From NCBI GenBank assembly GCA_031763025.1, contig JASSKH010000021.1, forward strand, positions 8,737,358 through 8,801,357: a stretch of DNA of 64,000 nt. The letters run 5' to 3'. The position numbers and the translations under genes are program-made. Each line of letters starts with the position of its first letter. Position 1 is the first letter of the stretch. The DNA comes from Macrocystis pyrifera. Taxonomy: Eukaryota > Sar > Phaeophyceae > Laminariales > Laminariaceae. Of the stretch, positions 19,496 through 63,882 are shown piece by piece. Below the pieces are notes generated by a model, which saw nothing but the letters and a program-made list of their open reading frames with translations, did no database searches and was not told the DNA's origin.

Positions 19496-21251
19496 CACAC
19501 CTCGGATAACGTAACACTTAACGTTTTATGTTAATGTTAGGCGTCAGCGAAAAAAATACGTAACATTACGTTACTACGTTAACTACTTTCTGGATTTTGT
19601 TATAACATTGTGTTATTACGGGGGTCCATAGTTAATGGGACCAAATTTGTTAGTACAAATAGGTAAATATATAGGTTTTTATGTATACCATAGGTCCTAT
19701 TAACTATGGACCCCCGTAATAGTGTGTTATGATATTGGCGGGCGATCGCGTAACATTATGTTGGAGTGTTACCTTGATCTCGTACTGACCGCAGTATATG
19801 TGTTACGGTGTTAGGGTATGCAGCCCATAGCGCGTAACACTATGTTAGCGTGTTAGCGGAATTCCTGGTGGTTACCGTAACACACGTTAAAGGGATAACG
19901 TACATGGTCACTTAAACCTTAACATTATGTTACCGTGTTCGCGGCATCAGCCCGTAGCGAGTAACGTTATGTTAGTGTGTCAGCGGGATTCTTCGTGCTA
20001 CCGTAACACCCTTTCGACGGATAACGTACACGGCCAAATAAACGCGTACATAACACTATGTTAGTGTGTTAGTGAAATTCCTAGGGGCTATCGTAACACA
20101 CGTTAGAGAGATGACGTATATGGTCAATGCAACGTTAACATTATGTTACTGTATCAGCCGCAGCAGCAGTCCGTTTCGAGCGATGTTATGTGAGGGTATT
20201 ACGGAAGTCTTGCTACCGTAACAACATAACATACGTCAAACGGATAACGTATATTATCGATAAAACACTATTAATAGCATTATGTTAATGTTGTTAACTC
20301 GTATGCAATGTATGTAGTGACACAAGTTAGTAGATAACGTACACCCCCAATCTAAACTCAACAATACGTTACTGCCGTGTTAACTCGTACGTGCGAGTGT
20401 GCAGATTACGTTATAGATGGATAACGTAATGTGTTATAGATGGATAACGTACTGGCGGGGTTTCCACAAACACAAATGAGGAGTTTTTTTGCGGGGATCC
20501 CTCATAAATACCCCTGTTTTGGGGTTTTAAAATATGGAGGCGTTTTTTTTACCGGGGATGCCATGCTAACCTCCCCCCCGGGGATATTTTTGTAGGGATG
20601 TCGGCGAAATTGGATAACACGTCAAGTATATTAGGATGTTACGCATGGGCCGGCCAAGACTGTAACGTGTCTAACGTACGTTAAGTGTTACGTTATCCGA
20701 CCCTAAGGCAATCAGATGGGGGGTCCAGATAACGTATAGTGTTAATAGTGCTGGTCATTGCGTTATGTTACGTTAGTGTGTTATCTGTAACACAATGTTA
20801 TGTGTTGGTAGTGCTGGCGAACATGGTAACGTTATGTTAGGGTGTTATGTATAACACTCCTCCTAAGGGTAACATAATGTTATTGTGTTACGTCTAACGC
20901 TGCGTCGACAATAACATTATGTTATCGTGTTAGTAAACACGTGGATATCGATCTGGGAATGTTAGAGTGATAACGTACGTATTTGGTCAAAGCCTAACAC
21001 TGTGTTACGGTGTTAGTTCAAGGACTGATCACGGCGTAACATAATGTTACTGTACCAGAGCTGGACGAGACCGAGCGGCAACATAACGTTAAGGCTCGTG
21101 CACGTTCGTGGGTTTCCAGTTAACGCTGTGTTACTGCGTTACCGTGATCGCTCCTCTAATGCTAACACTATGCTCGTACGTTACCACGTTCCTGTGTTAG
21201 GCCCCATAACGTAGATAAGTGTTATCCGAGTGTTACGTTATCCGAGGTGTG
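19496..21251. mobile_element. TIR element of 1756 bp packed with TAACATTATGTTA palindromes
   Basis: Inverted ends CACACCTCGGATAACGTAAC close both sides. The related repeat at 12890-12925 is uninterrupted and acts as an empty site, locating the insertion. The flanks GTGTT and GTATT suggest a 5-bp duplication with one change. The interior is built from dozens of degenerate TAACRTTATGTTA and GTGTTAGYG words in both orientations, with no ORF of note. A TA-MITE is nested at 19616-19719. Confidence 0.82.
19616..19719. mobile_element. MITE copy nested in a larger element
   Basis: Perfect TIRs and TA on both flanks (19614-19615, 19720-19721). It sits inside the 19496-21251 element, so it is the younger insertion. 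Confidence 0.92.
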
Positions 21252-45232: not shown

Positions 45233-45338
45233 TTACGGGGGTACATAGTTAATAGGACCTACGGTGTACATAAAAACCTATATATTTAACTATTTTTACT
45301 AAAACAAAATTGGCCCCATTAACTATGGACCCCCGTAA
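45233..45338. mobile_element. MITE copy, 106 bp, TA target duplication
   Basis: Both inverted ends are intact and TA lies on each side (45231-45232, 45339-45340). Confidence 0.92.
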
Positions 45339-45927
45339 TAGCACTTTTTTCCTTGCGAGGCAAATATTTCTTACTGATGGGGCTCCTCAACTGAAGAACT
45401 GCCCAACAAGGAGGCATGTCTTATCGATTGTTTCTGCGTTCGATTGGTTTTTTCGTCACATACTTTCTAACTAAAAAACGTTAAGGCCATGGGATCGCGC
45501 ATCGAGGCCACTGTGTGATTTTGTTTCCGACATCCAGTTTTTTTTGGGTGAGAGAGCAGACCTCCTCAACCGATCGGAGCCTCGCAGAAAATTGAATGGA
45601 AAGGTGCACCTGTACTACCGTGGCTTGCGTTGTTGAAGCTTCCGCACCTCGAACAGATCATCTACAGATCAATTTACGATCTATATCTTTCATGGAAGAT
45701 CTGCACCCCCGATCGTGTATGACCTAGATCATGTTGCCGGGTGGGACCCGTATGACTTGTGTGATCTAGCGCATGTTTCCAGGGTTGGGTCTGTGCTACG
45801 TATGCAGTATGCAGATACTGCACAACTTCTCATGACGGCAGGCCAGGAACTAGACGATCTATCTGCAGATAGATCATGGTGTGTCTGTGTCTTCTCCTGT
45901 GCCCATTGTCGGACGTCGAAAACGACA

Positions 45928-46032
45928 TTCCGGCGGACCATAGTAAATAGGACGAAATATTGTTAGCAAAAATCGTGGAATATCTTGTTTTTTGTGTGTG
46001 CCGTAGGTCCTATTTACTATGGTCCCCCGTAA
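45928..46032. mobile_element. MITE copy, GACCATAGTAAATAGG subfamily
   Basis: The left end TTCCGGCGGACC is mutated; the right end is CCCCCGTAA. The inner TIR reads CATAGTAAATAGG rather than CATAGTTAATAGG. Confidence 0.85.
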
Positions 46033-46575: not shown

Positions 46576-46679
46576 TTACGGGGGACCATAGTAGATAGGA
46601 CCAAATATTGTCAGTAAAACAATATAAATATATAGGTTTTGAGTGTACCGTAGGTCCCATTTACTATGGCCCTCCGTAA
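46576..46679. mobile_element. MITE copy, GACCATAGTAAATAGG subfamily
   Basis: TTACGGGGGACCATAG on the left; the right end has one mismatch (CCTCCGTAA) and is followed by TA. Confidence 0.88.
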
Positions 46680-46681
46680 TA

Positions 46682-47554: not shown

Positions 47555-47773
47555 ATGCCCATAAATAGGCGAGTACAAGCAGACGTCGTACAATATCCAT
47601 TGAACATGGACGTGCCCCGACTTGGACAACCGGATCACCAGAAGAAGACGAGAACGTCGCGCGTGTTACCGTCGCCGTCCAGAGCGCGCGCTATGCGCAT
47701 CCTGTTCTTGACCAACGCGCATAACGGCATGAGCCAGGCTCTTTACCTCAACCTCACGGAGCAGGGCCACCAG
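47555..47773 (+). CDS. HypX-FolD exon 1: N-terminal extension and first strand of formyltransferase fold
   Basis: From the ATG at 47693 the exon encodes MRILFLTNAHNGMSQ and ends in TEQGHQ, the typical first beta-strand and helix of HypX. The frame is open upstream to the ATGs at 47606 and 47555, adding 29 or 46 residues rich in R, K, S and P. That extension could be a targeting peptide or untranslated; no clear signal is visible. The donor CAG|GTGACA is phase 0. Confidence 0.82.
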
Positions 47774-50700
47774 GTGACATTTTTTCTGGTTGTCTTCATG
47801 CGAGAAAACGTATTCTATACCACAGGTTGAGGTTCTCTTTTGGGGACCTTCGGACGTGGGGCAACACCAAGGGCAAGGCTGATTACGGCTTTCGTGCAGC
47901 GACTGGTGCTGCGTTATAGGGGGAGTATTGTGCCATTATTTATACCACTCGAGAGGGTGGGTCTGTGCCTGTATCAAAATTGGACTTACACGTATTGTCA
48001 TGGCGGAGCGAATTAACCAATCTCAAGGCGCCACAAATTGCGAATTTGAAAAGCACGAGAACTTGAGAGTAAGACCGGAGCGCAATAATTTAGGAGTCAA
48101 TCTCCCGTGTGGCTCTGGGCGGCTGAAAACGAATGACCCGAAAGTGCCTCCCCGCCTACCGCCTGGTCGGTGAAAACAAGGCGTGCTCCGTCCCGGCATC
48201 GTCCGTCCCGGCATTGCAGTGCTTCGAGGGTTCTCGGTCGTACGGCGACTGCCCTACATGATATCGAGTACCCCCCCCCTCGCCCACTCTAGCACGAGTA
48301 GTCCATGTTTAAAAAAACGAAAGGCTCACCTGTTTTTCGAATGTTTAGGGTTCTACAGCCCATCAATTCCAAAGGCATAACGGCCTACGAAAGGAATCGG
48401 TATGTATATGCACGTACTCTAGAGAGCCGGGGTTCTTCATCAGCCAACTTCGTGGGGATGTCAGTTGCGCCTCACAACGTCAGTCGTTTACACGCCAAGC
48501 CTAGGCGCTATATGTGGGACTGTACCTCGTGTTTAGGCCTTCACTCTGTCTCATCGTCAGCGGGTATTGGACGAGCAAAATCGAGTTCCTTAAGCAAGAA
48601 GAGTCCGAAACGTCAGCTGCTGTATACTACTACAATGTACATACACCATGCCTCAAACGTTGTCCGTGTTGCCCGTCGTATTTCCTTTTCTTGCCTCCGC
48701 CCGGCGTAACGGTTTTCTCCTTCGCACGAAAAACAAAAGGTAATGCTACACGTCGCGCGCGGAGAGGACGACATGCTGGCAGCCCACGACGCCTTCGGCC
48801 CCGACGCTATCGTGGCACCCTTCCTTACCAAGCGCGTACCAGACCGCTTGTGGAAGAACAACACGACCTGCCCCGTGCTCATCGTCCACCCCGGCGTGCG
48901 CGGCGACAGGGGGGTCAGCTCCATCGATTGGGCACTCAAAGGTGCGAAGTCTGAGACTGTAGTGTACCCGGTAGAGCGTAATATCGAGAATGTTCGATTT
49001 TAGGTTACACGCTCGTTGTCCTGTGCGCGGCGTGCGATGTCGACCAGCGCCCTCCGCCGTTCGGGTGCTTAAATTAAAGGTGCGTTACGTGAAGCTACTA
49101 CCTTCGAAATGTAGTACGAGGGTGTGCGGTGTTGGGGCCACGGAATCCTTGGCCTTCAAAACGAAGTGCAACGTTGACCAGGACACTGCAATGGTTGGGC
49201 GTTCATATATTCGTGTTTTCTGTAGCAATATCGTGAGAGGGTGTGCAAGTGTGGGCTGCAAAATCCACGGCCTTAGGACGACAGAGTTTGACCAGTGCAC
49301 TCTACCGATTGAGGGCCCAAAGGTGCGTAGAATACTATTACGGGGGCCCATAGTTAACGGGACCAAATTTTGTTAGTAAAAATAGGTAAATATATAGGCT
49401 TTTATGTATGCCATAGGTCCTATTAACTATGGACCCCCGTAATAAGTGCTAAACTAGGAGAGTGTGCAACATTTGGCTACGAAGCCCTTGGCCTTAGCGC
49501 GCCCCGCAATGCTAGCCAACGCGCTCAATCGGTTGGGTGCTCGAAGGCGCGTAGTCAGCTGCCATTAGAGCTGGGCACTGGCACAGTATGTACTTCAGTC
49601 GAAGTGGAAAGCTACTCGCAGTAGTAATCTATTGGTTGACATGGCAAGTATTTCGCCCGCAGTTTTTACACTGCCGGCGTCCCCGGTGGCTTGGTAGGTT
49701 GTCCGCGTGCCTATCAATATCAATTTCGTGGGTTCGAATATCACCGAGTGCATGCTCGTAGAGGAACTTTTTCTCTCATAACAAATTGATTAGCGGGAGG
49801 CGCGAGAGCATGAGTTAGCTACATTCGATGAAAATCGACGAGCAGTGGGAATGCTGAACCCTGTGCGCGACAAAGAAATAAAAGCACGTACCGGGGGGGG
49901 AGAAGGGACGACACCTGTGACCTCGGCTTGCCCAGAAGATCGCTGACGTACAAATCTCCTACGAGTTAGGCTGGAAAGTAAAACTGATGATTAAAAAAAA
50001 AGAAGAAGGACAAATTACGTGTGCCCAAGAAACACGCCATATCAGGGTACAGAAACCCGCTAAATGTGTTTCCGGGAGGAGGGGGTAAGGAGGAGAGACA
50101 GCACACTGCTGCAATGGAGTAGACGGATTGATTTGGCGACAGTGTATTCGCTACGGTGATTGAGTCACCCAGTGCTCAACCCAAACTGCTACTATCGTGT
50201 AATATTCCGAAACTGTGCCATATTGCGTTACGAAACCCTTCTCCTTAGCACGGCATGCAAAACCGACCGCATGCCCCGTGAACCCTTTTGTCAAGACTCT
50301 TGACGAAAAGTGTCGACTAACAAAAACGGCTGAAAGTCAAGCAAAAAAAACGGCTTCGTGGTCATCTCGAAAGGGGACCCTATTTAAATATTTGGCATCA
50401 TCAAAAGTTACAAGCTCGCTTTCGCTCGTGATTTTGCGTACCCTCCGGTTTTATTCAGATTCCCTGCAAGAGTGGGGGGTAACGATTCTGCAGGCGGACG
50501 AAGAGATGGACGCCGGGGCCGTGTGGAGATCGCGCAACTTCTCCGTCCCTCAATCGTCGACGCTCACAAAGTCTGCATTCTACAACAAGGTACATACAAG
50601 CGGCTGTGAATATCAAGTGAACGTTTGAAACACCTCGGGGCAGATCTGGACTTTCCAGGGCGGATGTGCTGCCGATCTGTCATGGTGCCTCGTGTGAGCC

Positions 50701-53700
50701 ATGTGAACTGCAGTAATTATGCGTGTGTCGAATGAACTTGATGAACGTCCACGTTGCCGCTGCCCTCGCGCAGGCCTGGATGTGTAGACACATGCTACAC
50801 AAGGGGCCTATCAACCATGGCATCCGTGTTTGGAGGCTCCCCACTCGAGGGGGTCTGCGTGTCATCCACAGACAGGTTTTAGAGACGGCAGTATACGCTT
50901 ACCCCGATGGGCAGCCTTTACCGAACCATTGTTGGGTAGTTTCCCAGCTGAGAAGTCCCATTCACTCAGATTTGTTGTTCGCCCAGAAGTGCTGTCCATA
51001 TTCGTCAGTCTGCGTTGCTTCCGTGTAAGCCTTGCGGTACCCACCCTCTCACGCGTCCTACTCTCCTTTTCTTACATCCAAGGCTGTCGTTAAATGTCGC
51101 TGCTATGGGTTTCGTTCACAGCGATGTGATGCAGCTCGCAGAAGTCACAATCAATTGTACACCTGTGTCATTATGGGTATCTTCCACAACAATGGGAATG
51201 CAGCTCGCGAAGGTCATGCTCAAATTCTACACTAGAGTTATGAGACTTCTGAGTGACTTGGAACCCATTGTCCCCCCCCCCCCCCCCCCCCACGCTTTCC
51301 CGGCGGCGTGTCCCTCTCTTTTTTCGAACTGTCCACTCCTAACCCTTCTTCGTCCGCCTGCGACCGATACTTACGCGGTGCCTGCCTCGATGTTTACCGT
51401 GTCTGTCGTTTCACAACGTAACGCCGTAGCTGTGTGTGCCGGCGGCTCTGGCTGGCGTCCAGGATGCTCTGAAAAGGCTCCAGCATGGTGTCCCGCCACG
51501 ACCTTTGGATTACAGGTTAGCCATACTTCAAGCATAGGTGTATAAAACCGGGATCATCAGTGTAGAGACACGTGGTATAAAAAACTGGGATAGTCAACGT
51601 AATATAGATGTCGGTTTCTTTTCGTCGCTAGCTGTGGACTCAGGTATGGGTGTGCACTCTTTGGCAATTTTCGAAAGAGCCTTCGCGTGAGCGAGCATCA
51701 TTAGAACGCCTAAGCCACAGAACAATGATAGCGCTTCAGATCTTGCTACTTTTGGGGAAGACTCCCACCAACCGCGGAGCCAAAACTGCCCCGACGCCAC
51801 CCCCCCCCTCCTCCGTCACAATAAAAATATCCTGCGAGATGGATTAGTTGAACCACCGTTAGCAGAGCTTTGATAATGAGCCGCTTGATACACGTAAAAA
51901 AAACACGACTCGCCGCATATCATAGCTCGTGTCAAATGATGAATAAAAAAACAAATACTGCTGTATTTATTGTCCACAGCCACTCCGATGTGATAGGCAC
52001 GCTGCGGCCGACCATGAAGATGGCCGACCGCGCCGTGGACTGGACAGCCATGTCTGCGGACGAGGCGGCGCGAACCGTGCGCTTCAGCGACTCGAGCCCG
52101 GGATGTCCGCACACCATCCGCGGCACCAAGTACCGTCTTTATGGTGCCTTTGCCGAAGGGGGACGCACCCGCGAAACCGAAGAGGCCTTGGCCGCAGCAA
52201 GCGCTGCACCTGGAGAGCCCGTCGGTGAGACCGAGGTTGACGCGCGCTAGGCTAGGGGGTACAGAACGAGTAGCGCGTTTTGGCCGAGAGTACTTGGTGG
52301 GACTGACGAGTAACCACCGTACCCACATCTTCGGCCTCGCCGCACCGATTGTTTTCTCAATTACTTGTTTTGTCTGATATCGATGGAAATCCATTAGTTC
52401 GTATTGTGGTTTGAGTTGCCCGGGCTATGATATTTTCCATCGGGTGTCACTTCGGTTTTTCTTAAAAAATCCGCTTTTGGGTGGGGGCGTAAGGCTGCTC
52501 AAGTGAGGGACTTCCGAAGAAACAGTCCCACCTCTACCGTGGCAGGGTCAATATCGGTCCCCACCGCGCGACAGCCCTTAGAGGGGTGGTGTCATATATA
52601 TGAGCATAGTTTTATGATCACGAGTATCGTAGGCGCTGAGTTGGGTAGCCATTTTAGTCAAGGCACCACCACAGGTATATATTACCGAAGCTATCACACA
52701 GTGCACAGATCACAATCCAGATCATCTACAGATAGATCGTCTAGATCCTAAAGTGCCGTTGCGCGAGAGAGTTGTGCAGGATCGTTGTGCTGTAGTGATG
52801 TCGTGGCCTACGTGTATGATAGTTGGGAGACCCGTAGGCCTAGTGGTTACCCTCGCAATCTACGATTACGAAAGGTTGATACGTGAGTACCAATCCCACC
52901 GTGGTGGTATATCGTTTTTCTTCATTTTACTGAAATAAGAAGAGGCAAGTGCTGAGAGCGCAAAGCTTGGGTAGGCGCCATCCGACAAGAGTCCCGACAA
53001 GAACAGAAAACGTGCTGAAGTCTCTGCCTCGTGACTAAAAACAAGGTACGAACCGTAGTGAGCAGGGGGGAGGAGAGCCTGCTATGCAACGCCGGATTTG
53101 AGTCACGACTGTTACGAAGGAGAGAGAAACGAAGGGCGGAGGTGGTGACCGTGATGGGAAACAAAACGAAAAAGCAACAGCACATCCCAACACAGGAAGC
53201 ACGTCCCGGGCCATGCGGATGGTATAGGTTCCCGCCCGATACCCAACACGCGATACTGTAGATCATCATGCTGCACTACTGTAGTATCAGGGACAAATCT
53301 GCCGTGAAACACTCATCATAATCGTCAAGTAGGAACCGATGCGCTGTCTGAGGTGTGAAAGCTATAACACCGGCCAGCCGTGCATCTGGCATGACGCATG
53401 CAACACACGCGTTGTAAAAAATAGGCTGTCGACAGGGTTGTATCTTCGTTCAGAAGAGGTTTGTGAATGTGTGTTATAGTGCTGCGCAGCACACCATTTG
53501 TGGTGTTTGAACGCAAGATTTCGGTTTCGTTGTGTAGTCAAGAATGCGTTTAGTGGCTTTCGACCCGCGGGATCTTTTACCTCCGAACCTGCAAAAGTGC
53601 TAAACCTAGGGTTGCACATACACGTACGACATAGCACCCCCCCCCCCCCCCTCCCTCTACACACGGCACATTGTTTTTTCTACAAACGATCAGAAAATTA

Positions 53701-54578
53701 TCAATGAACAGATACAACAACATATCATACCCGGATCCATAGTTAACGACACCAAATTTTGTTGTGAAAATAGTTGAATATACAGGTTTTTATGTATACC
53801 ATAGGTCCTATTAACTATGGACCCCCGTAATAGTACAGTACGTACATGATTAACGTCACCACGGTGGTATCTGTTATCATATGTACAACGAAAACATCAT
53901 TTTCACACCGCCTTCGAACGAACAGTCCACATCCTGGAGAGGGTCTAAACACGCCGACCTTTGAAGGTTTCGCATATGTCTGCGCTTGCGCCGGCCGCAC
54001 GGACTCTCGTGCAGGCTACCGCGCGGGCCTTTCCCCGGTGAGGTCGAGACAGGCATGCACAAGAGGAAACGAAAATGTTCATCTCGCGCCCCGAGAAAAA
54101 GGCCTTGGAGCATGGGGCACCATCGGAATTCCAGTGCTTCGACGACACGCATCTGGGCCTCCTGTATATTTCGCCCTCGGAATTCCAGTGCTGTGACGAC
54201 AGGCATCTGGGTATCATACATATTTTATAAGCACGATAAACGCCGCAATACACACACTCCGTACGTCCACGGCTTCGCATTTGGTTCCCGGCCAATCGGG
54301 GATACATCATGTACATGTATATCCTTCGTGAGGTCGAATGAGACCCGTAGTGTACGTGCGCGATAGCGAAGTGTTGCGAACAGCTCGCAAAGGTGGGTTT
54401 CGACGAAATTCTCGATCTCGCACATGTTGAAGATCGTCTTTTTTCGCATAGGTTGCAAAGCGCAAGCCATGGAAACAATCCTGCAAGTTCTTTGATACCA
54501 GGAAATGGAGATATTACAACAGCCAGTACTATATACGCACAGTAAGCTCCGCAACCTTCAAAGCGACGGCCGCGACAA

Positions 54579-54672
<94 letters not shown>

Positions 54673-57600
54673 CGTGCATGCTTTGTTACCCGGATGTTTT
54701 ACGAACATTTGACGCGTAAAGGTAAGCGAAACGGGGCTGTTCTGTTCAAGTGCTCGGACGGGACGGGATTGTGGATTTCGCATATGAAGCGCACCGGCGC
54801 CAACACTACGGACAAACATGAGGTCCCTCCCTTCAAGCTCCCGTCGGCCTCAGTTCTCCCCAAGGATGTTGTGGATGCTCTGCCTTGCATCCCCGAGCCC
54901 TCCCTATACGTGCCCTTCGGAGAAAGGCCGTCCACATTCCAGGAGGTACCAAGATTCAGCAGTATATACCGCAGTTCGACACAGGCGAACACATAACAAA
55001 CAACCTCTTCAGAGAGTGATGTCGCAAGGTTGGGGGGGCGCTAAGAATTTTGGATTATGGGCTCGTGCTTTGCGGCAAGAGCTTCACTTAGTCTTACCAG
55101 GAATAGATAAGACTATTGCAAGGAAGACGCCCCACCCACAACCGGTGAACTTCCACCGGAAGCGTGCATGGTGTAGGTTCACGCAGGTGAAGGGATACCT
55201 TGGTCATCCGGAGATGCGCGATACCGTGGCAGACGCGTGGTACGATGAGGGTAGCGCCTGCTTCTCCCGTGCCTCACCCCAAACTGACATGCACAGCATA
55301 GCTAGGCTTACAGTAAGTCGGTGAGCGATCCCATGGCTTGGGTATATAGGGACGAATACTATTTTGCAACCCAAATGGGACAACGGGGCTCAATCGGAAA
55401 AGCTTCGGTCAAAATTATGTACAGTAGTCCTATCCTAGCGGGCGTGATTACACAGTACACAGTGAATAAAAGCTGTAGATAGATCTAGACATCTATCATA
55501 TTGAACATTGTACGAGTATCGCCGGCGGGGTTTTTACATTCTGCCCCCCTCCCCCATCCCGTCTATACTATACACCTGATATATATTGGTTGAGTTGGCG
55601 TCGATTGGCGACGACGCTGTAAAACACGCCTCGCACTACGTGAGCTAGACAGCCAGGGTACGTTTTGTTTTTTTTGGCGGTCACCACAGCTGGCGGTCGA
55701 GTTAGATAATGTTTGTGCTGGGAGAACCTTCCCTCCGCACAAGGGGGATGATCGTATCACGTAGTATGTATATGGTAAGGCACCCACAAGGCAGTTACAT
55801 CGTGAACCCGTTGTTGTCTGTGGAAGTGGCCACACCAGAAATTAAATCAATTCATTGACGCTGTCATCCGTATGCATGAAAATCCGCCTCAAAAGCGGTT
55901 CTTAGTAGGATGCAGCTCACCCTTCATGCGACTCGCCGGACAACTCACGGCGCGTCGTCTTGATCCAAGCAATGTCTGCCTGGTCCCTGAACACCCGACG
56001 TGCTCCGTCCCGGCATTGTAGGGTATGCGAGGGTCTATGGTCACACGACTACGGCCATGCATTATATCGAGTACACCCCCCGCCCCTGCACCAACCACCC
56101 TAGGTGTGGGTTTCCATCGACAACGGAATCGCCTACGTGCACAGCGACTTCTACAACGGGGCGGCGAGCACCTCCCAGTGCGAACGGCTGACGGCGGCCC
56201 TCCAGGAGGTCGGTGAACGAGACGCCGTCAAGGCCATCCTGCTCATGGGCGGCGAGCACAGCTACGGAAACGGTATTAACCTGAACACGATCGAAGCCAG
56301 CGCAGACCCGCAGATGGTGAGACGGTGACTACACAACGTGGACAATACCTTTTCGACCCAAGAACGTGGTTCCCATATTTGTGCCAAAATTCGAGCTCGC
56401 CTGACTGGATCGCCGTCTAGGTGTTGTATTCCGTCTCCCCTGCCGAAGGCAATCGAAAGCAAGTATTAGGTAGGATGAGGTCTCCTGCGCCGGCTGTAAC
56501 TTCTGTAAGTACTGTAGTTCCTTCGTTGTATTCGTTGACCTCGTATTGGGTGTACCGTTGTTGTTTTTTCTCTTCTTTTCCTTTTTCGAATGTATATATG
56601 GTGGCATGGACATGTTCCTGGAATTGTATGGTTGCAAGTGATACGCGATGGTATATCCCAGCGCGTTGTTACCGCTTCTCATACGGGCTGGTACGGCACT
56701 GCCGTGCGCACTATTTCGTACTTTGGTTGTTCTCTCCCGTCGAGACGCATTTTGTTACAGCCTGTTTCGTGACCAACAGGCAGGATTTCAGGGAAATGAG
56801 CGAGTGTAAGAACATAATGCCATCATCATCACGTCAGGTCTACGTGATTAGAGTATGGCATTACTGTATGTGTACTTTCCATGTCTACCCGTGATGTTTG
56901 GAATTGTCTGAAAATTCCAAATCCACTGCGGCTACTTGATCGACGGTTTTTAAACAAAACCATTCGCCTGACTTCATTTGTTTGTGCGCAGTCCGATGGG
57001 AACCTGTCCGACGGGTGGCGACGGCAAATCATTGCAATGCCGGTCGCTGCCCTGAACCTCTCGGTCGACGTTATAGTTAGGGTTAGGTTATCCTTTCCTT
57101 CGCAACCCGCTCCGCGAACACGAATCATCCTCGACGTTTCTTTGGCGTCAATGTTTCGTTTCTCCCTCAACGATGAAGGGCTCGTTGTGATGTTTCCTTA
57201 CCACCAACTTGGCTGTTCTTTTATTCGGATATTTGTTTGCACCGTGGGTTTCTCCCCTGATTATCGACGAAGGAATCGTGGTTGAACATCAACGCGATCA
57301 ACGACTCGATAAAGGCATCTTTCTTCATCTTGGACAAGGTCGTGGTGAGCGTCATGCGGGGCAACGCCGGCGCGGGCGGGGCGATGGCAGCTATGTCGTC
57401 AGATGTCGTGTGGGCGCACGAAAACGTCATCCTCAACCCTCACTACAAGGTATAGGTGATGAGTACGCGTTTTTTTGCATTTACTGGTACCAATGAACGT
57501 GCAGTCTGAGATAAAGAGGAAGCCTGATATACACAGATTACATCCTCTAGGCATCGTGCAGGAGTAAGCTACTACCACGGCAACGGTAAATTCCTTGCCC

Positions 57601-60600
57601 ATGATCTCAATGTTTCAGCCCAACCTTCAAGGGCATGCGACGTTAGGGTGTATGCGAAGAATCTGGTTGGCTTTTCGTTTTTGTGTGGACTGTTTTGTGC
57701 CGGTACATAGTAGCAATATCGACTCACGAATAACTACTTGCTGTGACAAAACGTTGCCGAAATGACTCTTTTTGTCTACAGCGTTCCGGGGTGGGCTCAC
57801 TCTGTGGGTTGATTAGCGAAAGAAAAAATCATGTTCGGCTAGTGCCTTCGGGTTCACCTTTTCAACCAATCAGCTCTCCTCGCGTTTGTCGGTTTCACAC
57901 ATTTTTACAACTGAACAAAATTGGATCGTCACAAACACCCCAGGAGTACATACCGTGGGAGCTAGTGCACCTTACTCTGTATTGCCGCAACCTCCGTAGA
58001 TCCATGCAGGCAGTTACATAATACACACCCAAGGCCGACAAGGTGCATATATGCCTGAAGATCACAAAGCCCCCCCACCCGCTGCAGTGTTAACGAAGAC
58101 ATATACGCATCCTCAAGATCCATGTATACATATCTCCAGTTCCACCACCTTAAACGTTTCTCTCAGTACAGAGAGCCCTGAACTCCTTGACCTGGGATGA
58201 AATCGATCGACTTCTCACAGCACACGAGCCATAATCTGGTCACATGGTTCGGGAACAGGTATATAGGTAAACTGCGATCATAACTTCGAGGCCCGCACCC
58301 GCCATCCTCGAGGAGCCTCGATCACATAAACCCAGTCAGCCTGACGGTGGTTCACGCACTGACTCAAGCAAACGGTTGACACACCCAATGTACGAGACGA
58401 AACTGGGACTGACCCAAACCAGACCTGGGCCAATCAACCAATCTTTAGCGTCACTCCCTTTTCTAGTACACAGCACTGCGTCCCAGGCATATTATCAACT
58501 ATGTTGGTGGTAGCACTGGTCCACCTCTCGACCCGACTTAACCCTCCCCATCATTAACATCATTGCGCGCGTTCTCTACAACAAGGCCATGGAGCTTACC
58601 GGGGGAGAGTACTGGACGCACTTCTTGCAAGGCAGAGTAGGTAGGGACGCTGCGATGGAACTCACCGGCGCCACGCGGCCGATCACGGCCAGTCAGGCGC
58701 ACGCCCTCGGCATGGTGGACGATTTGTTGCAGCACTGTCCGAGCTCTAGCTTTCGCGAGGAGGTAAGGGAACAGACACATTACGCTTCGCGGTAGACACA
58801 TTCGCACCTTCAATATGCCTGAGGCTCTCTCACTACAGGAGCTGCACACAATTCGCCCAAAAACGATGAACTTCTGAGACGAATGAAAGTGCCATCCGAC
58901 AGGCAATCGGTTCAATCCCGCGATCTTGGTGGGTATTGGCAAACACGCACTACTTTTTCAAACATTATGTTGATGCCCCCAGTCGAGGGGTCTCGGGTCA
59001 ATCGTTTTTGTTTTGGCGATAATGTGCCACCCCTGCCCTGTCGATTTATCTCGCGGTAGGGGTTGCGCCTTTTGGCCTCCTGAGGCAATATTTTCTGATC
59101 GGTTGAGCTCCTCTTCAAGTGAGCAGGTGCTGGTTGGTACGATACTTATACCTACCACAAGTACAACTAACCTTTGTTTTAGGACTACTTGTACCGCAGT
59201 AGCAAAGTTGGCCGGGTCCGGCGAACAAAACTCCTCGAAAGTCAATTTTCCGATGAGACACTGAGATCCTCATGTGTGAGGGGTCCAAAAATCAAGGCAC
59301 CGTCCCTAACGGAACATTGGCTCGCGTGAACCAACAGCGTAAAGCCATTTACAATCGAAAACTCCTTTTTGGGGGCAGCTTGGTTTGGTATTTCTCAGTT
59401 TATTAAGGTCTCCTACACCCCTATTCTCCCGACAGTGTCTGTCAATATCTGTCTGGTCGAAACCTGTCTGGCCTGGAATGCACTCTCCCATAGGACCAGC
59501 ACAGCGTAACGCCTTCACAACTGAAAACCCGTGTTTGAGGACGCGTTACTTGAAAATTGTTAAGTGGGGGGTTCGGGGGCTCTAACTAACCCACGCTTTT
59601 GGGTAAGTGAAGTAATCCACTCTGGAGGCAATATTAAGGTCGTTTAGACACAACAGGAATATCATACTATCTTTACGTTGATGTCCAGAGGGTCGCCTCA
59701 TAGAGCACGTTGGAGAGTACAAGGAGGGCCCCCGAGTTAGAAAGATTTGCCGCGCTTGTTCTCGGAAATACTGCGCACCGTATCGTGTCACAGAGCGAGT
59801 GTTTTGCGATTCGGACCATGCGGTATTGATCTATCACGTTAGGTATTCGACACACTGTCTTTGTACTGATTGACTGTGTGCTGTGTTACGTGCGGTGTAG
59901 CCGCAGATAGGCGCAACGCTTTTAATAATTGAATCGTACGTTTATGCCGAATATGGTTTAAAGGGTCATGTGTGATGGTTTCGTCCTTACCGAGTGGTCC
60001 CGTGTGACATTTCTTGCTCGACACAGTTGTGCGCCATCCGAACTCGAGCCGAGACGCTCGTGTCGAGTGGACTGGCCGACAAGATCATTGCGGAGAAACT
60101 GCACGTCAGGAACGATGCCTGGTTCGAGAAGGTGAGTGTACATCTCTGCTGACGTAAACATACTGCTGGCATAGTTATAGCTGTGTGTGTCAAGGATATT
60201 CATTTGCCAAAGGTATTGTGTATATCCTGTCGGTTACTAGGGGTGAACATGCACCTACAATAGTTGCGATGTATTTTCCATCCTTAGAGCAGCAGTAGGT
60301 ACAGCAGTAGTACAGGCACACACCTACATGTGTACAGTATATAGCAGGCGCCCATGCTCTACGTAGGACGAATGTTTATGCATGTATACCAGGCGCCTAT
60401 ATCCAAGCATAGGGGTCCAGGGATACAGGCGCAAATAAACCAAGAATATTACAGTACAGCGCCGACAAAGGGACCACTATTCTGCTGCACGTAGGGGCAG
60501 TGCCTCTGTGCTTTCGAACGAATTGGGATTTCATGATCCGGTCGACAAGTATCAACGCACGCCTGCGACTAGGTAGAAGGTTAGCGACCTTCCTTCAATG

Positions 60601-63600
60601 ACATGTTACGTATTTAGCAGTTACGTTTTGTGGGAAGACATAGTTGCTGCTCCGTCTAGTTTTGTTTGGAGTTTTCCGATTCGTTTTCGTTCTTTCTATT
60701 TTTGTTGGGTTCGTCATCCGGGTAAATGTGCAGCAGGAGCCTTGACGTTGATCACTCATCAACATTCCCCGACAGAAGACGACAAGGAAGGGGAACAGAT
60801 GAAAACAAAAAGGAAACCTATTGAAGTAGCCTACTAATAGACTGCAGTACGATGCCTATTGGCTCAGCAGCTTCAACCTTGATCACTCCTATGGATTCCA
60901 CCCACGAGGGGGATACATATATATATAATATATATATTTATATTATATTTTCTTATATTTTGTGCGGGCGTTTGGCATTGCTGCTAAATGTATCGCCAGC
61001 TAAAGAAAAGCTAATGGGTCACAGTAGTGGCCCCTCTACAGTGCTGGCTGTCTGTTACGATGTCTGTGAAATCGCTTAGCACAGATGGGATTCATTTTAA
61101 TAGTGTGGCAGTGGGCGGAGTAAATAGTGCCGGGTTACCGTGATAGCGCCGATATTGTTGGCTGGCGCATACCGGCACCATAGAGGGCCCGATACTATAG
61201 CGAGGTACAAGTTCTCTGTCTATGGAATACTGCTACATTTCTTGACTAATTTTATCCCGTACCCGTGCAGCAAACATTAGAAATAGTGTCACGGTATGGC
61301 ACGTATCTCTGTCATGGAGCAAAGTACGAAAGATACCCATGACACCAAGAACGGCTAAAATACAACTTCACGCACGGCCGGCAGGTAGAGAGGTGCAGGA
61401 CGTCCGAACTGGTGAGGATGAAGGAGTGCTTCTCCAGCCCGTGGTACCACGACGCCCGCCGCCGTTTCGTCTACAAGGTGATATCTCATCCGTGTCCTCA
61501 ATGCATAGAGTAGGTAGGCGCTCAGCGATAAGGGAAAACGGTACACACGGGATCTCAACTTTTATGGGGCTCCGCGCTAACGGAAAACAGTAGAATATAG
61601 AACGGGACCTCAAATTTCTGCCCACCGGTTTGGTCGACTACTGGCCGCAAGGGGCCGGTACAAACTCTGATCAGCGGGGGTGGTACAGAAGGGACCTCCG
61701 ATCCCGAACGCACTAGGGTCACTTGAAAGTGGATACTTACTGTACGGGGAACGCGCTAGGGAGATGGTGGTGATGGTGGTGGTGATGGTGGTGTCGTTTC
61801 GCATCAAAGAAGCAGCTGTGTCTGCGGTATGCTCAGCAGGCACTGTTACGTGTGAATGAGCGGGTGGGTGGGTGGGTGGGTGGGTGGGTTGGGAAGGTGG
61901 GCAGATGGGTGGGTACGTACTTGCGTGGGGTGGGTGTCCTTGTGACGTACGAGCCTCGACCGTGTACGGTCTCCGCTGGTGTTGTTAATCGTGACCTTCG
62001 TGTGGCGTGGTTTTATTAGTGTCGTCGACATTTGGCATTAACCTTTCCCGGTGCCCGAGGCTGCACATACATGCATGCGTGCTGTATATATATCACGTGT
62101 GTCACGCGAATGACACCACCGAAAGATGCACGCTACAACTGAGATTGCGACCTAACATATATTGAGGCTCCTAACTTGAAGAGCTCTGCACCCCACTCAA
62201 AGCCCCGACCTCGACAAATCGGAAAGCGCAACCCGATGAACCTTGCCATGGCTTGGATAATCATCGAGAACTAGCGAAAATCACAAGTGCTGTTCCAGTG
62301 ACATTGGGTAATTCCTCAACAAAGGAGCCCTGTCAGTCACGCACCGCTCTGAGCGGAAATAAGGATCGTTTACACACAAATATCAGTACTAATCGGTCCT
62401 TATTTTTCCACCCAAGAATGGTATAGTCTAGCGTGAAAAGGGCACGCGGCCGGTAGTACTTGCATATATGGAGGAGGCGTTCGCACCCAACATTTATGAG
62501 GATCCTATCTTGATGATAGCATGGGAGCTCTATACCTCCCAAAAAAACATGTTTTTTTAATAAAAGCTAAAGCGTGCAACATCACCTGGGAGGAAAATAC
62601 CACAACTTGGGTATATCACGAAATGTGTTGGTGAAACACTAAAAGGGTAGCGTTCCAACGGTATTGGGTTAAGAATCCCGGTCAGCCAGAAAATAGTCTG
62701 ACGAAAAAAATGCTACCCCTGTCGAAGCACGTGTCGGACTCGAGAATGGCGACCTTAGGATGAGTAATGCGTTGTAACAAAGAAGAATGGCGACCTTAGG
62801 ATGGGTGATGCTTCGTAAAAAATGTACCCTGTGAATCATGTCCACCTATTGCATACCAGGGTATGATACCCGCTTCCAGCAATGGCTATTAATAGTCCAC
62901 TATACTACGACACATAAATAAAAAATCCCAAGATGGAATCACAAGAGCATGTACAGCTACTGCACCGTATGTGTGTACGTGGAGGTAAAATGTTATCCTT
63001 TTCTCGGACTTTGTGCCCCTGCAAACAGAACAGTCCCCCCTTTCGGGCATTGTACGGGTGCCAGGGTTTATTGATATGCGACTACGGCCATACATGCCAT
63101 GAAATCACTCGCCCCCCCCCTCCCCCATATAAGGATGTTTCCAGCGAAACAGTATCATACCATAGCAAAGGTCGCAGTGACGCTGCACATCAGACAAAAA
63201 CGTAAAGATCGAATGCTGTGCTCTACCCGCTTACGTGTTTCGTGTCACGCAGAGCCCCACACTGAGCACCACGCCGACACATATGGTGAGAGAAGCCGCC
63301 GTGCCCGCACTATCGCTCAACGGCAAGCTCGCGGCAAAGGTGATCAGGCAGCAGATCAAGGAGCGAATCGCCGTCCTTGCCAAGGAAGGAGATCGGAGCA
63401 GCGCCAGCAGAGTGCCAGGACTCGGAATCGTCATGGCGAACGGGTGGGAGGCATGGGGTGGGATGGGGTAAGGTGGGGGTGGAATGGGGTGAGGTGGGGT
63501 GGATGGGTGGGAGGGTGGACGTATGAGTGGGTGGGTGAGTGGGTGCGCGCGCATCAAAAGAACGGCAGAGAAGGTTTCGTGTTGACTGTTCTACCCTCTG

Positions 63601-63882
63601 GCTGACTGTATGGCGTGGAACACTTTGGGCGGAAATGTATAGAGCGTTTAAATCCATGTTTTCGTCCCAGCCGCCCTTACATTTGCGTCCAGAGTGCCGC
63701 TTTAGCCTGAGCACATTGTCACCAAGAACATGCTGCTGATTGGTTTCCGTCGCCCTATCAGACGACCCGATTCCAGCATCTACGTGGACGCCAAGATACG
63801 TGCCGCCAAGGAGACCGGAATGAAGACAACCCTTGTAGATATACCAACGGAAGGCTTGTCACCCACCGCTTTGGAAGCTGAG
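47555..63882 (+). CDS. HypX/HoxX-like protein fused to FolD, 13 exons, 3' end outside window
   Basis: Exons: 47555-47773, 48740-48941, 50471-50589, 51430-51515, 51980-52224, 54722-54945, 56104-56316, 57273-57449, 58586-58762, 60027-60131, 61385-61477, 63253-63443, 63762-63882. All twelve introns are GT-AG with phases 0,1,0,2,1,0,0,0,0,0,0,2, and the reading frame stays open throughout. Numbered from the ATG at 47693, residues 1-160 are a formyltransferase-type Rossmann domain (VHPG at 76-79, MDAG at 107-110), about 163-270 a Fmt-C-like domain, about 320-574 a crotonase domain (GNAGAGG at 420-426), and about 585-678 the N-terminal FolD domain (Y645, K649). The HypX part, 574 residues, matches the usual HypX length. 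Known role of HypX: formyl transfer from 10-formyl-THF to CoA, then CO release. Known role of FolD: methylene-THF to 10-formyl-THF. Coupling of the two is inference. In-frame ATGs lie at 47555, 47606 and 47693; the last gives the canonical HypX N-terminus. Confidence 0.88.
48182..48279 (+). repeat. CGTCCCGGCATTG repeat with poly(C) end
   Basis: GTGCTCCGTCCCGGCAT, GAGGGTTCTCGGTCGTACGG and TGATATCGAGTACCCCCCCC. Related copies at 55998-56098 and about 63015-63130 end in the same way. Confidence 0.7.
48740..48941 (+). CDS. HypX-FolD exon 2: formyl-THF binding and catalytic His
   Basis: Acceptor AAAAG|GTAATG, phase 0. It encodes a helix, the strand DAIVAPFLTKRVP, and the motif LIVHPGVRGDRG followed by SSIDWALK. 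In formyl-THF enzymes the histidine of this strand (H77 here) is catalytic. HPG-GDRG-S-DWA is specific for the HypX branch rather than methionyl-tRNA formyltransferase. Donor AAAG|GTGCGA, phase 1. Confidence 0.92.
49338..49442. mobile_element. MITE copy in HypX-FolD intron 2 (TA-flanked, 105 bp)
   Basis: Terminal inverted repeat TTACGGGGGYCCATAGTTAA on both ends, an AT-rich centre, and TA on both flanks (49336-49337, 49443-49444). It belongs to a seven-copy family; TA duplications suggest a Tc1/mariner-type mobiliser. Confidence 0.9.
49690..49757 (+). other. tRNA-like relic in HypX-FolD intron 2
   Basis: CCCGGTGGCTTGGTAGGTTG resembles an A-box region and GTGGGTTCGAATATCACCGAG a B-box/acceptor region. 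Acceptor pairing is nearly complete, but T and anticodon stems are degenerate. Confidence 0.4.
50471..50589 (+). CDS. HypX-FolD exon 3: catalytic Asp motif
   Basis: The split codon restores GAG (Glu), giving EWGVTILQADEEMDAGAVW and then SRNFSVPQSSTLTKSAFYNK. D108 in MDAG corresponds to the catalytic aspartate of the formyltransferase family (GVT-Q-D-G pattern). Donor AACAAG|GTACAT, phase 0. Confidence 0.92.
51272..51291 (+). repeat. 20-nt poly(C) upstream of exon 4
   Basis: One of eleven C runs of nine or more on the + strand (also 18088, 29217, 33132, 35757, 44698, 48271, 51800, 53637, 54580, 63112). Several sit in the last 150 nt of introns. Confidence 0.9.
51430..51515 (+). CDS. HypX-FolD exon 4: linker helix, 28 codons
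   Basis: Small exon between acceptor CGCCGTAG and donor TACAG|GTTAGC, in the phases required by its neighbours. It encodes AALAGVQDALKRLQHG and PPRPLDY; the tail joins exon 5 to give PLDYSHSDVIGTLRP, the conserved HypX sequence leading into the second domain. A 20-nt poly(C) tract lies 138 nt upstream of the acceptor. Confidence 0.8.
51980..52224 (+). CDS. HypX-FolD exon 5: start of Fmt-C-like domain
   Basis: Acceptor CCACAG|C completes the Ser codon. The exon encodes SHSDVIGTLRPTMKMADRAVDW, the RP-M-ADRA-DW signature that opens the C-terminal formyltransferase-like domain, then a helix and the segment CPHTIRGTKYRLYGAFAEGG. It ends in APGEPV plus one base at donor GTCG|GTGAGA. Confidence 0.9.
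52823..52895 (+). other. tRNA-like relic in HypX-FolD intron 5
   Basis: GGCCTAGTGGTTACCCTCGC followed about 45 nt later by GTGAGTACCAATCCCACC. Decayed A and B boxes. Confidence 0.4.
53727..53830. mobile_element. MITE copy in HypX-FolD intron 5 (104 bp)
   Basis: The right end is intact (ATGGACCCCCGTAA then TA). The left end is decayed (ATACCCGGATCCATAGTTAA). Confidence 0.85.
54580..54671 (+). repeat. 92-nt uninterrupted poly(C)
   Basis: A pure C run in intron 5 of the HypX-FolD gene ending 50 nt before exon 6. Its exact length may be affected by assembly. Confidence 0.95.
54722..54945 (+). CDS. HypX-FolD exon 6: end of Fmt-C-like domain and linker
   Basis: Joined to exon 5 it reads PGEPVGKRNGAVLFKCSDGT and then GLWISHMKR, matching the beta-barrel strands of the Fmt-C-like domain. 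A linker with FKLPSASVL leads to RPSTFQE at the crotonase boundary. The acceptor GTAAAG is 50 nt downstream of the end of a 92-nt poly(C) run (54580-54671). Donor GGAG|GTACCA, phase 0. Confidence 0.9.
55014..55324 (+). pseudogene. Possible LINE relic in HypX-FolD intron 6
   Basis: The open frame includes FHRKRAWCRFTQVKGYLGHP then EMRDTVADAWYDEG. HPE---V-DAW is characteristic of the endonuclease-RT linker of L1/Tx1-like non-LTR retrotransposons. The flanks show no RT, so it is a fragment, not a host exon; HypX needs no residues here. Confidence 0.4.
55998..56098 (+). repeat. CGTCCCGGCATTG repeat with C-rich end, just upstream of exon 7
   Basis: GTGCTCCGTCCCGGCATTGT, GAGGGTCTATGGTCACACGA and TATATCGAGTACACCCCCCG. 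Its C-rich end lies immediately before the exon 7 acceptor. Confidence 0.7.
56104..56316 (+). CDS. HypX-FolD exon 7: crotonase-fold core, first oxyanion loop
   Basis: Encodes VSIDNGIAYVHSDFYNGAAS and TSQCERL. After AVKAILLMGGEH comes SYGNGINLNTIEASADPQM. The NGI-LN-IEA loop is the HypX counterpart of the first oxyanion-hole segment of enoyl-CoA hydratases. The acceptor CCCTAG follows a C-rich tract. Donor ATG|GTGAGA, phase 0. Confidence 0.94.
57273..57449 (+). CDS. HypX-FolD exon 8: second oxyanion loop GNAGAGG
   Basis: Starts ESWLNINAINDSI, the conserved W-NINA-ND helix of HypX. VSVMRGNAGAGGAMAAMSSD follows, then VVWAHENVILNPHYK. GNAGAGG is the second oxyanion-hole turn, and NPHYK is the HypX equivalent of the catalytic-loop region of crotonases. 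Donor CTACAAG|GTATAG, phase 0. Confidence 0.94.
58586..58762 (+). CDS. HypX-FolD exon 9: crotonase C-terminal half
   Basis: Encodes AMELTGGEYWTHFLQGRVG, then a helix and ATRPITASQAHALGMVDDLL. The G-EYWT-L--RVG and A--LG-VDD patterns are typical of HypX and of crotonase trimer-interface helices. Donor GAGGAG|GTAAGG, phase 0. Confidence 0.93.
60027..60131 (+). CDS. HypX-FolD exon 10: C-terminal helices
   Basis: Acceptor CACACAG|TTG, phase 0. It encodes RTRAETLVSSGLADKIIAEK and ends NDAWFEK. Position and helical character fit the long C-terminal helix of HypX. Donor GAGAAG|GTGAGT is a near-consensus 5' splice site. Confidence 0.82.
61385..61477 (+). CDS. HypX-FolD exon 11: end of HypX portion
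   Basis: Encodes ELVRMKECFSSPWYHDARRR then FVYK, matching the conserved HypX C-terminal M--F-SP-YH-AR--FV-K. The acceptor is placed at GGCAG|GTA; an alternative six bases downstream also keeps frame. Without splicing at 61478 the frame adds 11 residues and stops at TAG 61511-61513. Confidence 0.82.
61858..61921 (+). other. GGGT-repeat, G-quadruplex-capable tract in intron 11
   Basis: Six GGGTG units in a row followed by further GGG runs, preceded at 61762-61795 by a GGTGGTGAT repeat. It lies on the coding strand of the HypX-FolD gene. Confidence 0.7.
63253..63443 (+). CDS. HypX-FolD exon 12: linker plus start of FolD domain
   Basis: Acceptor CACGCAG|AGC, phase 0. It begins SPTLSTTPTHMVREA, then LSLNGKLAAKVIRQQIKERI and VPGLGIVMANG, the first helix and strand of FolD. 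As I recall, bacterial HypX ends in a P--TP-HL-type tail; PTLSTTPTHM would fit that and supports a true fusion. The in-frame ATG at 63283 leaves a separate FolD gene possible. Donor AACGG|GTGGGA, phase 2. Confidence 0.85.
63444..63546 (+). other. G-rich start of intron 12
   Basis: The 318-nt intron begins GTGGGAGG and continues as about 100 nt of GGGG and GGG runs separated by T, A or GT. The tract abuts the 5' splice site inside the FolD coding region. Confidence 0.7.
63762..63882 (+). CDS. HypX-FolD exon 13: FolD catalytic Tyr/Lys helix
   Basis: The split Gly codon gives NGRPDSSIYVDAKIRAAKE and then TGMKTTLVDIPTEGLSPTALEAE. S--YV--K carries the Tyr and Lys that FolD enzymes use for cyclohydrolase/dehydrogenase catalysis. 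Donor GAG|GTGTGT. The remaining FolD residues, including the NADP-binding half, lie beyond 64000. Confidence 0.92.

Follow-up and report, generated by a model that had tools for sequence, protein, structure and literature searches.

Positions 47569 to 63882 of a 64,000-nucleotide stretch of the Macrocystis pyrifera genome (C202:8737358-8801357; hereafter the window) raise the question of whether giant kelp encodes a HypX protein fused to the folate enzyme FolD, and what such a protein would be for. The locus in the window is one of four, designated copies A to D, with the window holding copy C. The architecture of HypX-FolD as a eukaryotic nuclear gene family of giant kelp is strongly supported by sequence comparison. 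We consider it fairly probable that the product is a three-module enzyme combining 10-formyl-tetrahydrofolate (THF):coenzyme A (CoA) formyltransferase, formyl-CoA decarbonylase and methylene-THF dehydrogenase/cyclohydrolase activities, which would release carbon monoxide (CO) as its product.

The HypX and FolD modules

In the initial annotation, thirteen exons between 47693 and 63882 were joined into one reading frame. This model was reproduced, with GT donors and AG acceptors throughout and a predicted product of 678 aa, and H77, D108, GNAGAGG (at 420), Y645 and K649, counted from the ATG at 47693, are in the places assigned to them. In phmmer searches against PDB chains, residues 1-583 match Aquifex HypX [6J0P] over its length (E 1e-94), in agreement with the proposed identity, and residues 594-676 match a FolD-type structure [4a26] (6.9e-6), as expected if FolD lies downstream. 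Both matches are far beyond chance. The product has the two-domain layout of HypX, with an N-terminal 10-formyl-THF transferase (Rossmann and OB subdomains) followed by a crotonase domain in one chain. Pfam families detected in the 678-aa product are ECH_1 (5e-15), THF_DHG_CYH (1.3e-10) and Formyl_trans_C (4.6e-7); Formyl_trans_N scored 24.6 bits, which is 1.5 below the Pfam cut-off of 26.1.

In Aquifex HypX numbering, His74, Asp80 and Asp109 have been proposed to act in formyl transfer, and Tyr416 and Glu426 in decarbonylation (PMC6802093). Kelp copies A, B and C retain every one of these residues, copy B being read with an X at its frameshift; in the window copy they correspond to H77, D83, D112, Y452 and E461, consistent with the intact motifs first noted there. 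The His and both Asp are invariant across the 31 bacterial HypX sequences aligned. Of the 30 that are long enough, all have the Glu and 24 have the Tyr; Thr takes the place of this Tyr in the remaining six, which are all from Bacteroidota. These six (L031, L033, L038, L040, L042 and L043) have hyp-gene markers nearby. The residues that contact the CoA 3′-phosphate in Aquifex HypX, S194, Q195 and N306, are Ser, Ser and Asn in kelp, and position 195 varies in bacteria too.

The fusion to FolD that was claimed for the window copy holds for exons 12-15, which are open, but not for exons 16 and 18, which lie beyond the window and are frame-shifted as assembled; the copy on C196 (copy A) is intact. 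In copy A, almost the entire FolD domain aligns to PDB 1a4i (phmmer, E 5e-53), which we take to be human MTHFD1. It keeps YVDAK (YxxxK), VVQMPLP (VQxPLP), KDAD (the second Asp of KDxD) and GGVGPMT, presumably representing the FolD catalytic Tyr, Lys, Gln and Asp. Copy A thus has complete FolD catalytic and NAD(P) domains, which the window copy as assembled does not.

A probable single spliced product from a nuclear gene family

Protein searches of the kelp assembly (537,376,219 bases in 223 contigs) gave at least 49 exon matches, counts from these searches being lower bounds, and all fell within four HypX loci on three scaffolds. Copy A is on C196, copy B on the minus strand of C203, and copy C, the window locus, on the plus strand of C202, while copy D is on the plus strand of C203 from 11442336 (L067-L069). 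HypX exons are followed by FolD exons in the same order at all four loci. Copy A is intact and is made up of 19 exons separated by 18 introns, all GT..AG, in one frame that runs to a TAA and predicts 927 aa with the corrected exon 3 described below. Copies D and B are arranged tail to tail, with approximately 16 kb between the last exon found in D and the last exon of B.

HypX has otherwise been described from bacteria, and a bacterial contaminant or misassembled bacterial gene was considered. However, the intact copy has 18 introns, the four copies are spread over three scaffolds of 12.5-13.7 Mb, and the best full-length bacterial relative, from Paenibacillus alkalitolerans, is only 42-44 percent identical. 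A bacterial origin of the assembled sequence is therefore given next to no credence, and was rejected on the introns, the four loci and the lack of a close full-length bacterial relative. A bacterial fragment of 108 residues (L063) reaches 52 percent identity. A tree of 34 rows, comprising 31 bacterial loci, Aquifex HypX and kelp copies A and C, with a midpoint root for drawing only, placed the kelp pair on a branch of 1.63 changes per site, and no specific bacterial donor was found in it. The tree and the identities cover 31 of 40 bacterial loci (L048, L050, L052, L053, L057, L060, L062, L063 and L064 were dropped). The identity of copy A to HypX from loci lacking hydrogenase markers (mean 0.387, n=11, excluding the truncated L059) is hardly different from that to HypX from marker-linked loci (mean 0.376, n=19). 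A search for HypX in viral contigs gave 56 pattern matches and no relatives.

Whether HypX and FolD belong to one product depends on intron 11 (61478..63252, phase 0), which lies between the modules. The initial annotation had named a transcription start belonging to FolD alone as the finding that would overturn the fusion, and no support for such a start was obtained. Two neighbouring genes, with HypX ending in exon 11 and FolD driven from its own promoter in intron 11, might be proposed on the grounds that exon 12 of copies A, B and C carries an ATG that would suit a FolD start. However, exon 12 opens directly at an AG acceptor in all three copies, and their ungapped identity is 0.30-0.55 in the 60 nt before this boundary and 0.83-0.87 in the first 30 nt after it. 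The conserved codons ahead of the ATG continue the frame of exon 11 and encode the linker SPTLSTTPxHMVREA, in which 9 of the 10 residues preceding the FolD Met are identical. In copy D, where the linker reads TPTLSTTPTHTVNEA, the possible start Met is Thr. Comparison of the intron 11 copies revealed no block common to A, B and C that could be a promoter or first exon. A and B gave no match below E 1, the best A-C match is 57 bases (81 percent) and the best B-C match is 16 bases, and similarity between copies is no greater than in other introns. HypX extends to its C-terminal tail and FolD starts at once, with almost no linker and with neither module short of a part. The exon 12 acceptor, the conserved linker, the absence of a shared block in intron 11 and the completeness of both modules argue for a single spliced product; we infer the exon 11/12 junction and the spliced transcript from the gene models. 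Together with the exon order common to the four loci, they make two separate genes very improbable.

Constraint on the copies was estimated as the ratio of nonsynonymous to synonymous substitution rates (dN/dS) by the Nei-Gojobori method. For HypX, dN/dS is 0.109 between A and C (578 codons), and 0.138 for A-B and 0.133 for B-C, both without exon 2. For FolD, the A-B value is 0.136 over exons 12-19 and 0.207 over exons 12-15 alone, and the A-C and B-C values over exons 12-15 and 17 are 0.062 and 0.110. With dS among copies of 0.46-0.78, these values indicate that both modules are under purifying selection and that the copies are old and have been kept as proteins, from which it follows that the indels in B and C are either recent or errors of assembly.

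The exons of copy C are all on the plus strand. Exon 1 (47569..47773) includes the start of HypX at 47693-47773, MRILFLTNAHNGMSQ. The reading frame from 47693 was upheld, but the ATG at this position might not be the genuine start, and exon 1 probably extends back to 47569, the base following a conserved AG from which the frame is open in all four copies. The segment 47569-47692 is a probable N-terminal coding extension resembling a presequence, with its start codon in an upstream exon not yet seen. It is rich in Ser, Arg and Pro, differs among copies by three-base indels and is weakly constrained (proportions of nonsynonymous and synonymous differences, 0.19-0.38 and 0.38-0.59), and low constraint is as expected of a presequence. 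The alternative is that this segment is a 5′ leader. BLAST comparison of the 9 kb stretches upstream matched mostly repeats, and no first coding exon was recognised in them.

Exons 2 to 4 (48740..48941, 50459..50589 and 51430..51515) encode the formyltransferase domain, exon 2 carrying HPGxRGDRG with H77 and D83. The initial annotation placed the start of exon 3 at 50471, but it is probably at 50459. Copies A, B and C all have an in-frame AG 12 nt upstream of the earlier acceptor, and at the earlier acceptor itself copy B has GG. The four added residues fill a four-residue gap of the earlier model against Aquifex HypX, bring the window part to 682 aa and renumber the catalytic Asp of this exon from D108 to D112. 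Exon 5 (51980..52224) covers a linker and the Formyl_trans_C (OB) subdomain, and exon 6 (54722..54945) the OB subdomain and the interdomain linker. The crotonase domain starts in exon 7 (56104..56316) and continues through exon 8 (57273..57449), with GNAGAGG and the catalytic Tyr (LNPHY), exon 9 (58586..58762), with the catalytic Glu (GGEYW), and exon 10 (60027..60131), its C-terminal part. The HypX module ends in exon 11 (61385..61477) with YHDARRRFVYK. Exon 12 (63253..63443) encodes the linker SPTLSTTPTH and the FolD N-terminus, and exon 13 (63762..63882) the Tyr/Lys motif YVDAK. Copy C runs on past the window in six further exons at 64432-72703 (extended window coordinates).

Intron 5 contains a run of 92 C at 54580-54671. 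Elements of about 100 bases resembling miniature inverted-repeat transposable elements, with inverted-repeat ends (TTACGGGGGTCCATAGT...ACTATGGACCCCCGTAA), are found at approximately 19616-19720, 45233-45339, 46576-46680 and 49338-49443 of the window. Their right end also occurs near 46016 and 53814, and such elements are found upstream of copies A and B as well.

Predicted reaction and competing explanations

The initial annotation regarded an intact HypX in a eukaryote as unexpected given the absence of [NiFe]-hydrogenases from typical eukaryotes. Consistent with that view, searches of the kelp genome with PF00374 (large subunit) and PF01924 (HypD) gave no matches to either. The same type of search found exon-split FolD and FTHFS genes, so exon-split genes are not generally missed, though this does not prove that the hydrogenase and HypD are absent. 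One Fe_hyd_lg_C locus is present, on C205, and likely encodes what we take to be a eukaryotic NAR1-type protein. The kelp sequence is a HypX but is not assigned as a hydrogenase maturation factor.

HypX genes lacking an evident hydrogenase partner were also seen in bacteria. In one scan that gave 40 bacterial HypX loci, hydrogenase or Hyp markers, called by short regular expressions, a rough method, were near HypX in 26 and were not seen in 14, some on short contigs. Whole-genome searches covered 13 genomes, representing 12 of the 14 marker-less loci and L034. Nine of them, all among the 12, gave no match to the [NiFe]-hydrogenase large subunit, and the subunit is present in L034. Many of the 13 are metagenome-assembled genomes (MAGs) and could be missing some of their genes. 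Three related gammaproteobacteria in which no [NiFe]-hydrogenase was detected have a gene for an MHYT membrane protein with 2-3 scored repeats just upstream of HypX (L032:7112-7891, L035:6637-7404 and L059:6770-7633). A role in sensing O2, CO or NO has been proposed for MHYT domains. The kelp genome, the nine bacterial genomes and the three MHYT-adjacent genes together suggest that HypX has roles outside hydrogenase maturation, perhaps related to CO. Genes for a methyl-accepting chemotaxis protein, CheW and a response regulator are near HypX in L032, HypX is split into two frames in L059, and in L036 (8001-10157) HypX is fused C-terminally to a hemerythrin domain (Pfam 2.7e-7). A tblastn with kelp FolD as query, covering flanks of up to 8 kb at the 40 loci (some shortened by contig ends), found no FolD beside bacterial HypX; this tblastn had no positive control, and the same domain used in phmmer matches E. 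coli-type FolD at ~1e-52.

In the predicted reaction sequence, the FolD module would oxidise 5,10-methylene-THF to 10-formyl-THF, and the HypX module would move the formyl group from 10-formyl-THF onto bound CoA and then decarbonylate the resulting formyl-CoA to CO and CoA. We infer these steps, like the earlier proposal that one polypeptide could make CO, from homology. Bacterial HypX makes CO from 10-formyl-THF in vitro (PMC12134894), and CO production by the kelp protein is probable. As no [NiFe]-hydrogenase was found that it could help to mature, the CO would probably be released as a product in its own right, as a gas or a signal.

Several observations weigh against a three-module CO-forming enzyme. 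Four of the seven CoA-contacting residues that were mutated in Aquifex HypX are changed in kelp (Arg9 to Ala, Arg131 to Asn, Gln195 to Ser and Arg542 to Lys), though each of these positions is also variable among bacterial HypX. The KDVDG motif of FolD reads KDADA in A, B and C and KDADV in D, and a separate, canonical-looking FolD locus with KDVDG is present at C203:2.03 Mb, which means that the fused FolD is not needed for general folate metabolism. The crotonase domain could use formyl-CoA in some other way, formation of CO and formyl-CoA by the kelp protein being predicted only. As assembled, A is the only intact copy. In copy B, a G run of exon 2 carries a frameshift and exon 10 is followed by a GC donor; its FolD exons 12-19 are open. 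In copy C the frame stays open across HypX and FolD exons 12-15, but exons 16 and 18 have 2 and 5 extra nt relative to A, which breaks the FolD frame. Copy D has stops in at least 4 exons, its exon 1 is split over two frames, and no match to exons 18-19 was found for it; this copy is clearly a pseudogene by sequence.

The indels in exons 16 and 18, taken with the state of copy D on C203, raise the question of whether the window copy is itself a decaying pseudogene with no function of its own. Copy C may have lost the second half of FolD and may not make a working three-domain enzyme. However, its HypX frame is fully open and constrained relative to A, and the constraint is stronger still in its FolD exons 12-15 and 17. 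The reference assembly was produced by Canu and Racon from PacBio Sequel II reads (PMC10498591), which makes residual indels plausible; those in exons 16 and 18 are possibly assembly errors. Decay of copy C is a real possibility that we nevertheless doubt, and it would concern one copy only and be compatible with the family as described. A different objection accepts the fusion but not the product. HypX might hydrolyse 10-formyl-THF, or make formyl-CoA for another acceptor, and with FolD serve one-carbon oxidation and the supply of NADPH. The N-terminal domain is indeed homologous to the hydrolase domains of 10-formyl-THF dehydrogenases [4qpd and 1s3i] (~1e-9), and a hydrogenase to receive CO was not found in the kelp genome. 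However, the kelp sequences have the HypX-type Asp at the position of the hydrolases' Ser, and A, B and C keep the crotonase Tyr and Glu that are needed for the Ralstonia HypX phenotype (PMC6802093), unlike the six Bacteroidota sequences with Thr for this Tyr. An enzyme that forms no CO therefore appears unlikely, and release of CO by HypX-FolD is the preferred reading.

The first report of CO in kelp floats dates back about a century, and we know of no enzyme named as its source. The man-of-war Physalia makes its float CO from serine via folates. The inner bulb of the kelp Nereocystis is described as high in CO (PMC9601103, citing Liggan and Martone 2020), and PMC6820529 lists literature on folates and the origin of CO in the Physalia float. 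The float record cited here concerns Nereocystis. A float-bearing kelp with a protein predicted to link methylene-THF oxidation and formyl-CoA decarbonylation offers a concrete candidate for the origin of float CO. The wider proposal, that HypX-FolD is a brown algal CO synthase that would convert serine-derived methylene-THF to CO, supply float CO and, at lower output, a CO signal, and represent a hydrogenase-independent use of HypX found also in bacteria, is offered tentatively and with low expectation that all of it will hold. The link to float CO is a testable but unproven hypothesis.

Comparison with known systems

HypX and FolD are known families, and their combination and host appear to be new within the limited literature searched, which did not include subscription papers and in which no description of a HypX-FolD fusion or of a eukaryotic HypX was found. 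Relative to FolD/MTHFD1 dehydrogenase-cyclohydrolases, copy A shares the near-full domain and its motifs but differs in having KDADA for KDVDG. FolD otherwise stands alone or is joined to formate-THF ligase, whereas the kelp module sits behind HypX and, as assembled in the window copy, has its frame broken in the second half. The hydrolase domain of 10-formyl-THF dehydrogenase (ALDH1L family) has the same formyltransferase fold and gives a weak match (~1e-9). This family carries further ALDH1L domains where the kelp protein has a crotonase domain. At the active site, kelp has the HypX-type Asp in place of the Ser of the His-Ser-Asp triad (PMC6802093).

The closest counterparts are Aquifex aeolicus HypX [6J0P] and the HypX/HoxX of Cupriavidus/Ralstonia, with which the kelp protein shares the same two domains end to end. 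It is 37-39 percent identical to Aquifex HypX and has the same five proposed catalytic residues. Unlike HypX/HoxX, it is fused C-terminally to FolD, is encoded by an intron-rich eukaryotic gene at four loci, and occurs in a genome where searches found neither a [NiFe]-hydrogenase large subunit nor HypD for it to serve. Among bacteria, the HypX of Paenibacillus alkalitolerans, a Kordia MAG, Teredinibacter ISS155, a Cellvibrionaceae MAG and five others likewise come from genomes in which no [NiFe]-hydrogenase large subunit was detected, and the His and both Asp are conserved in them as in kelp.

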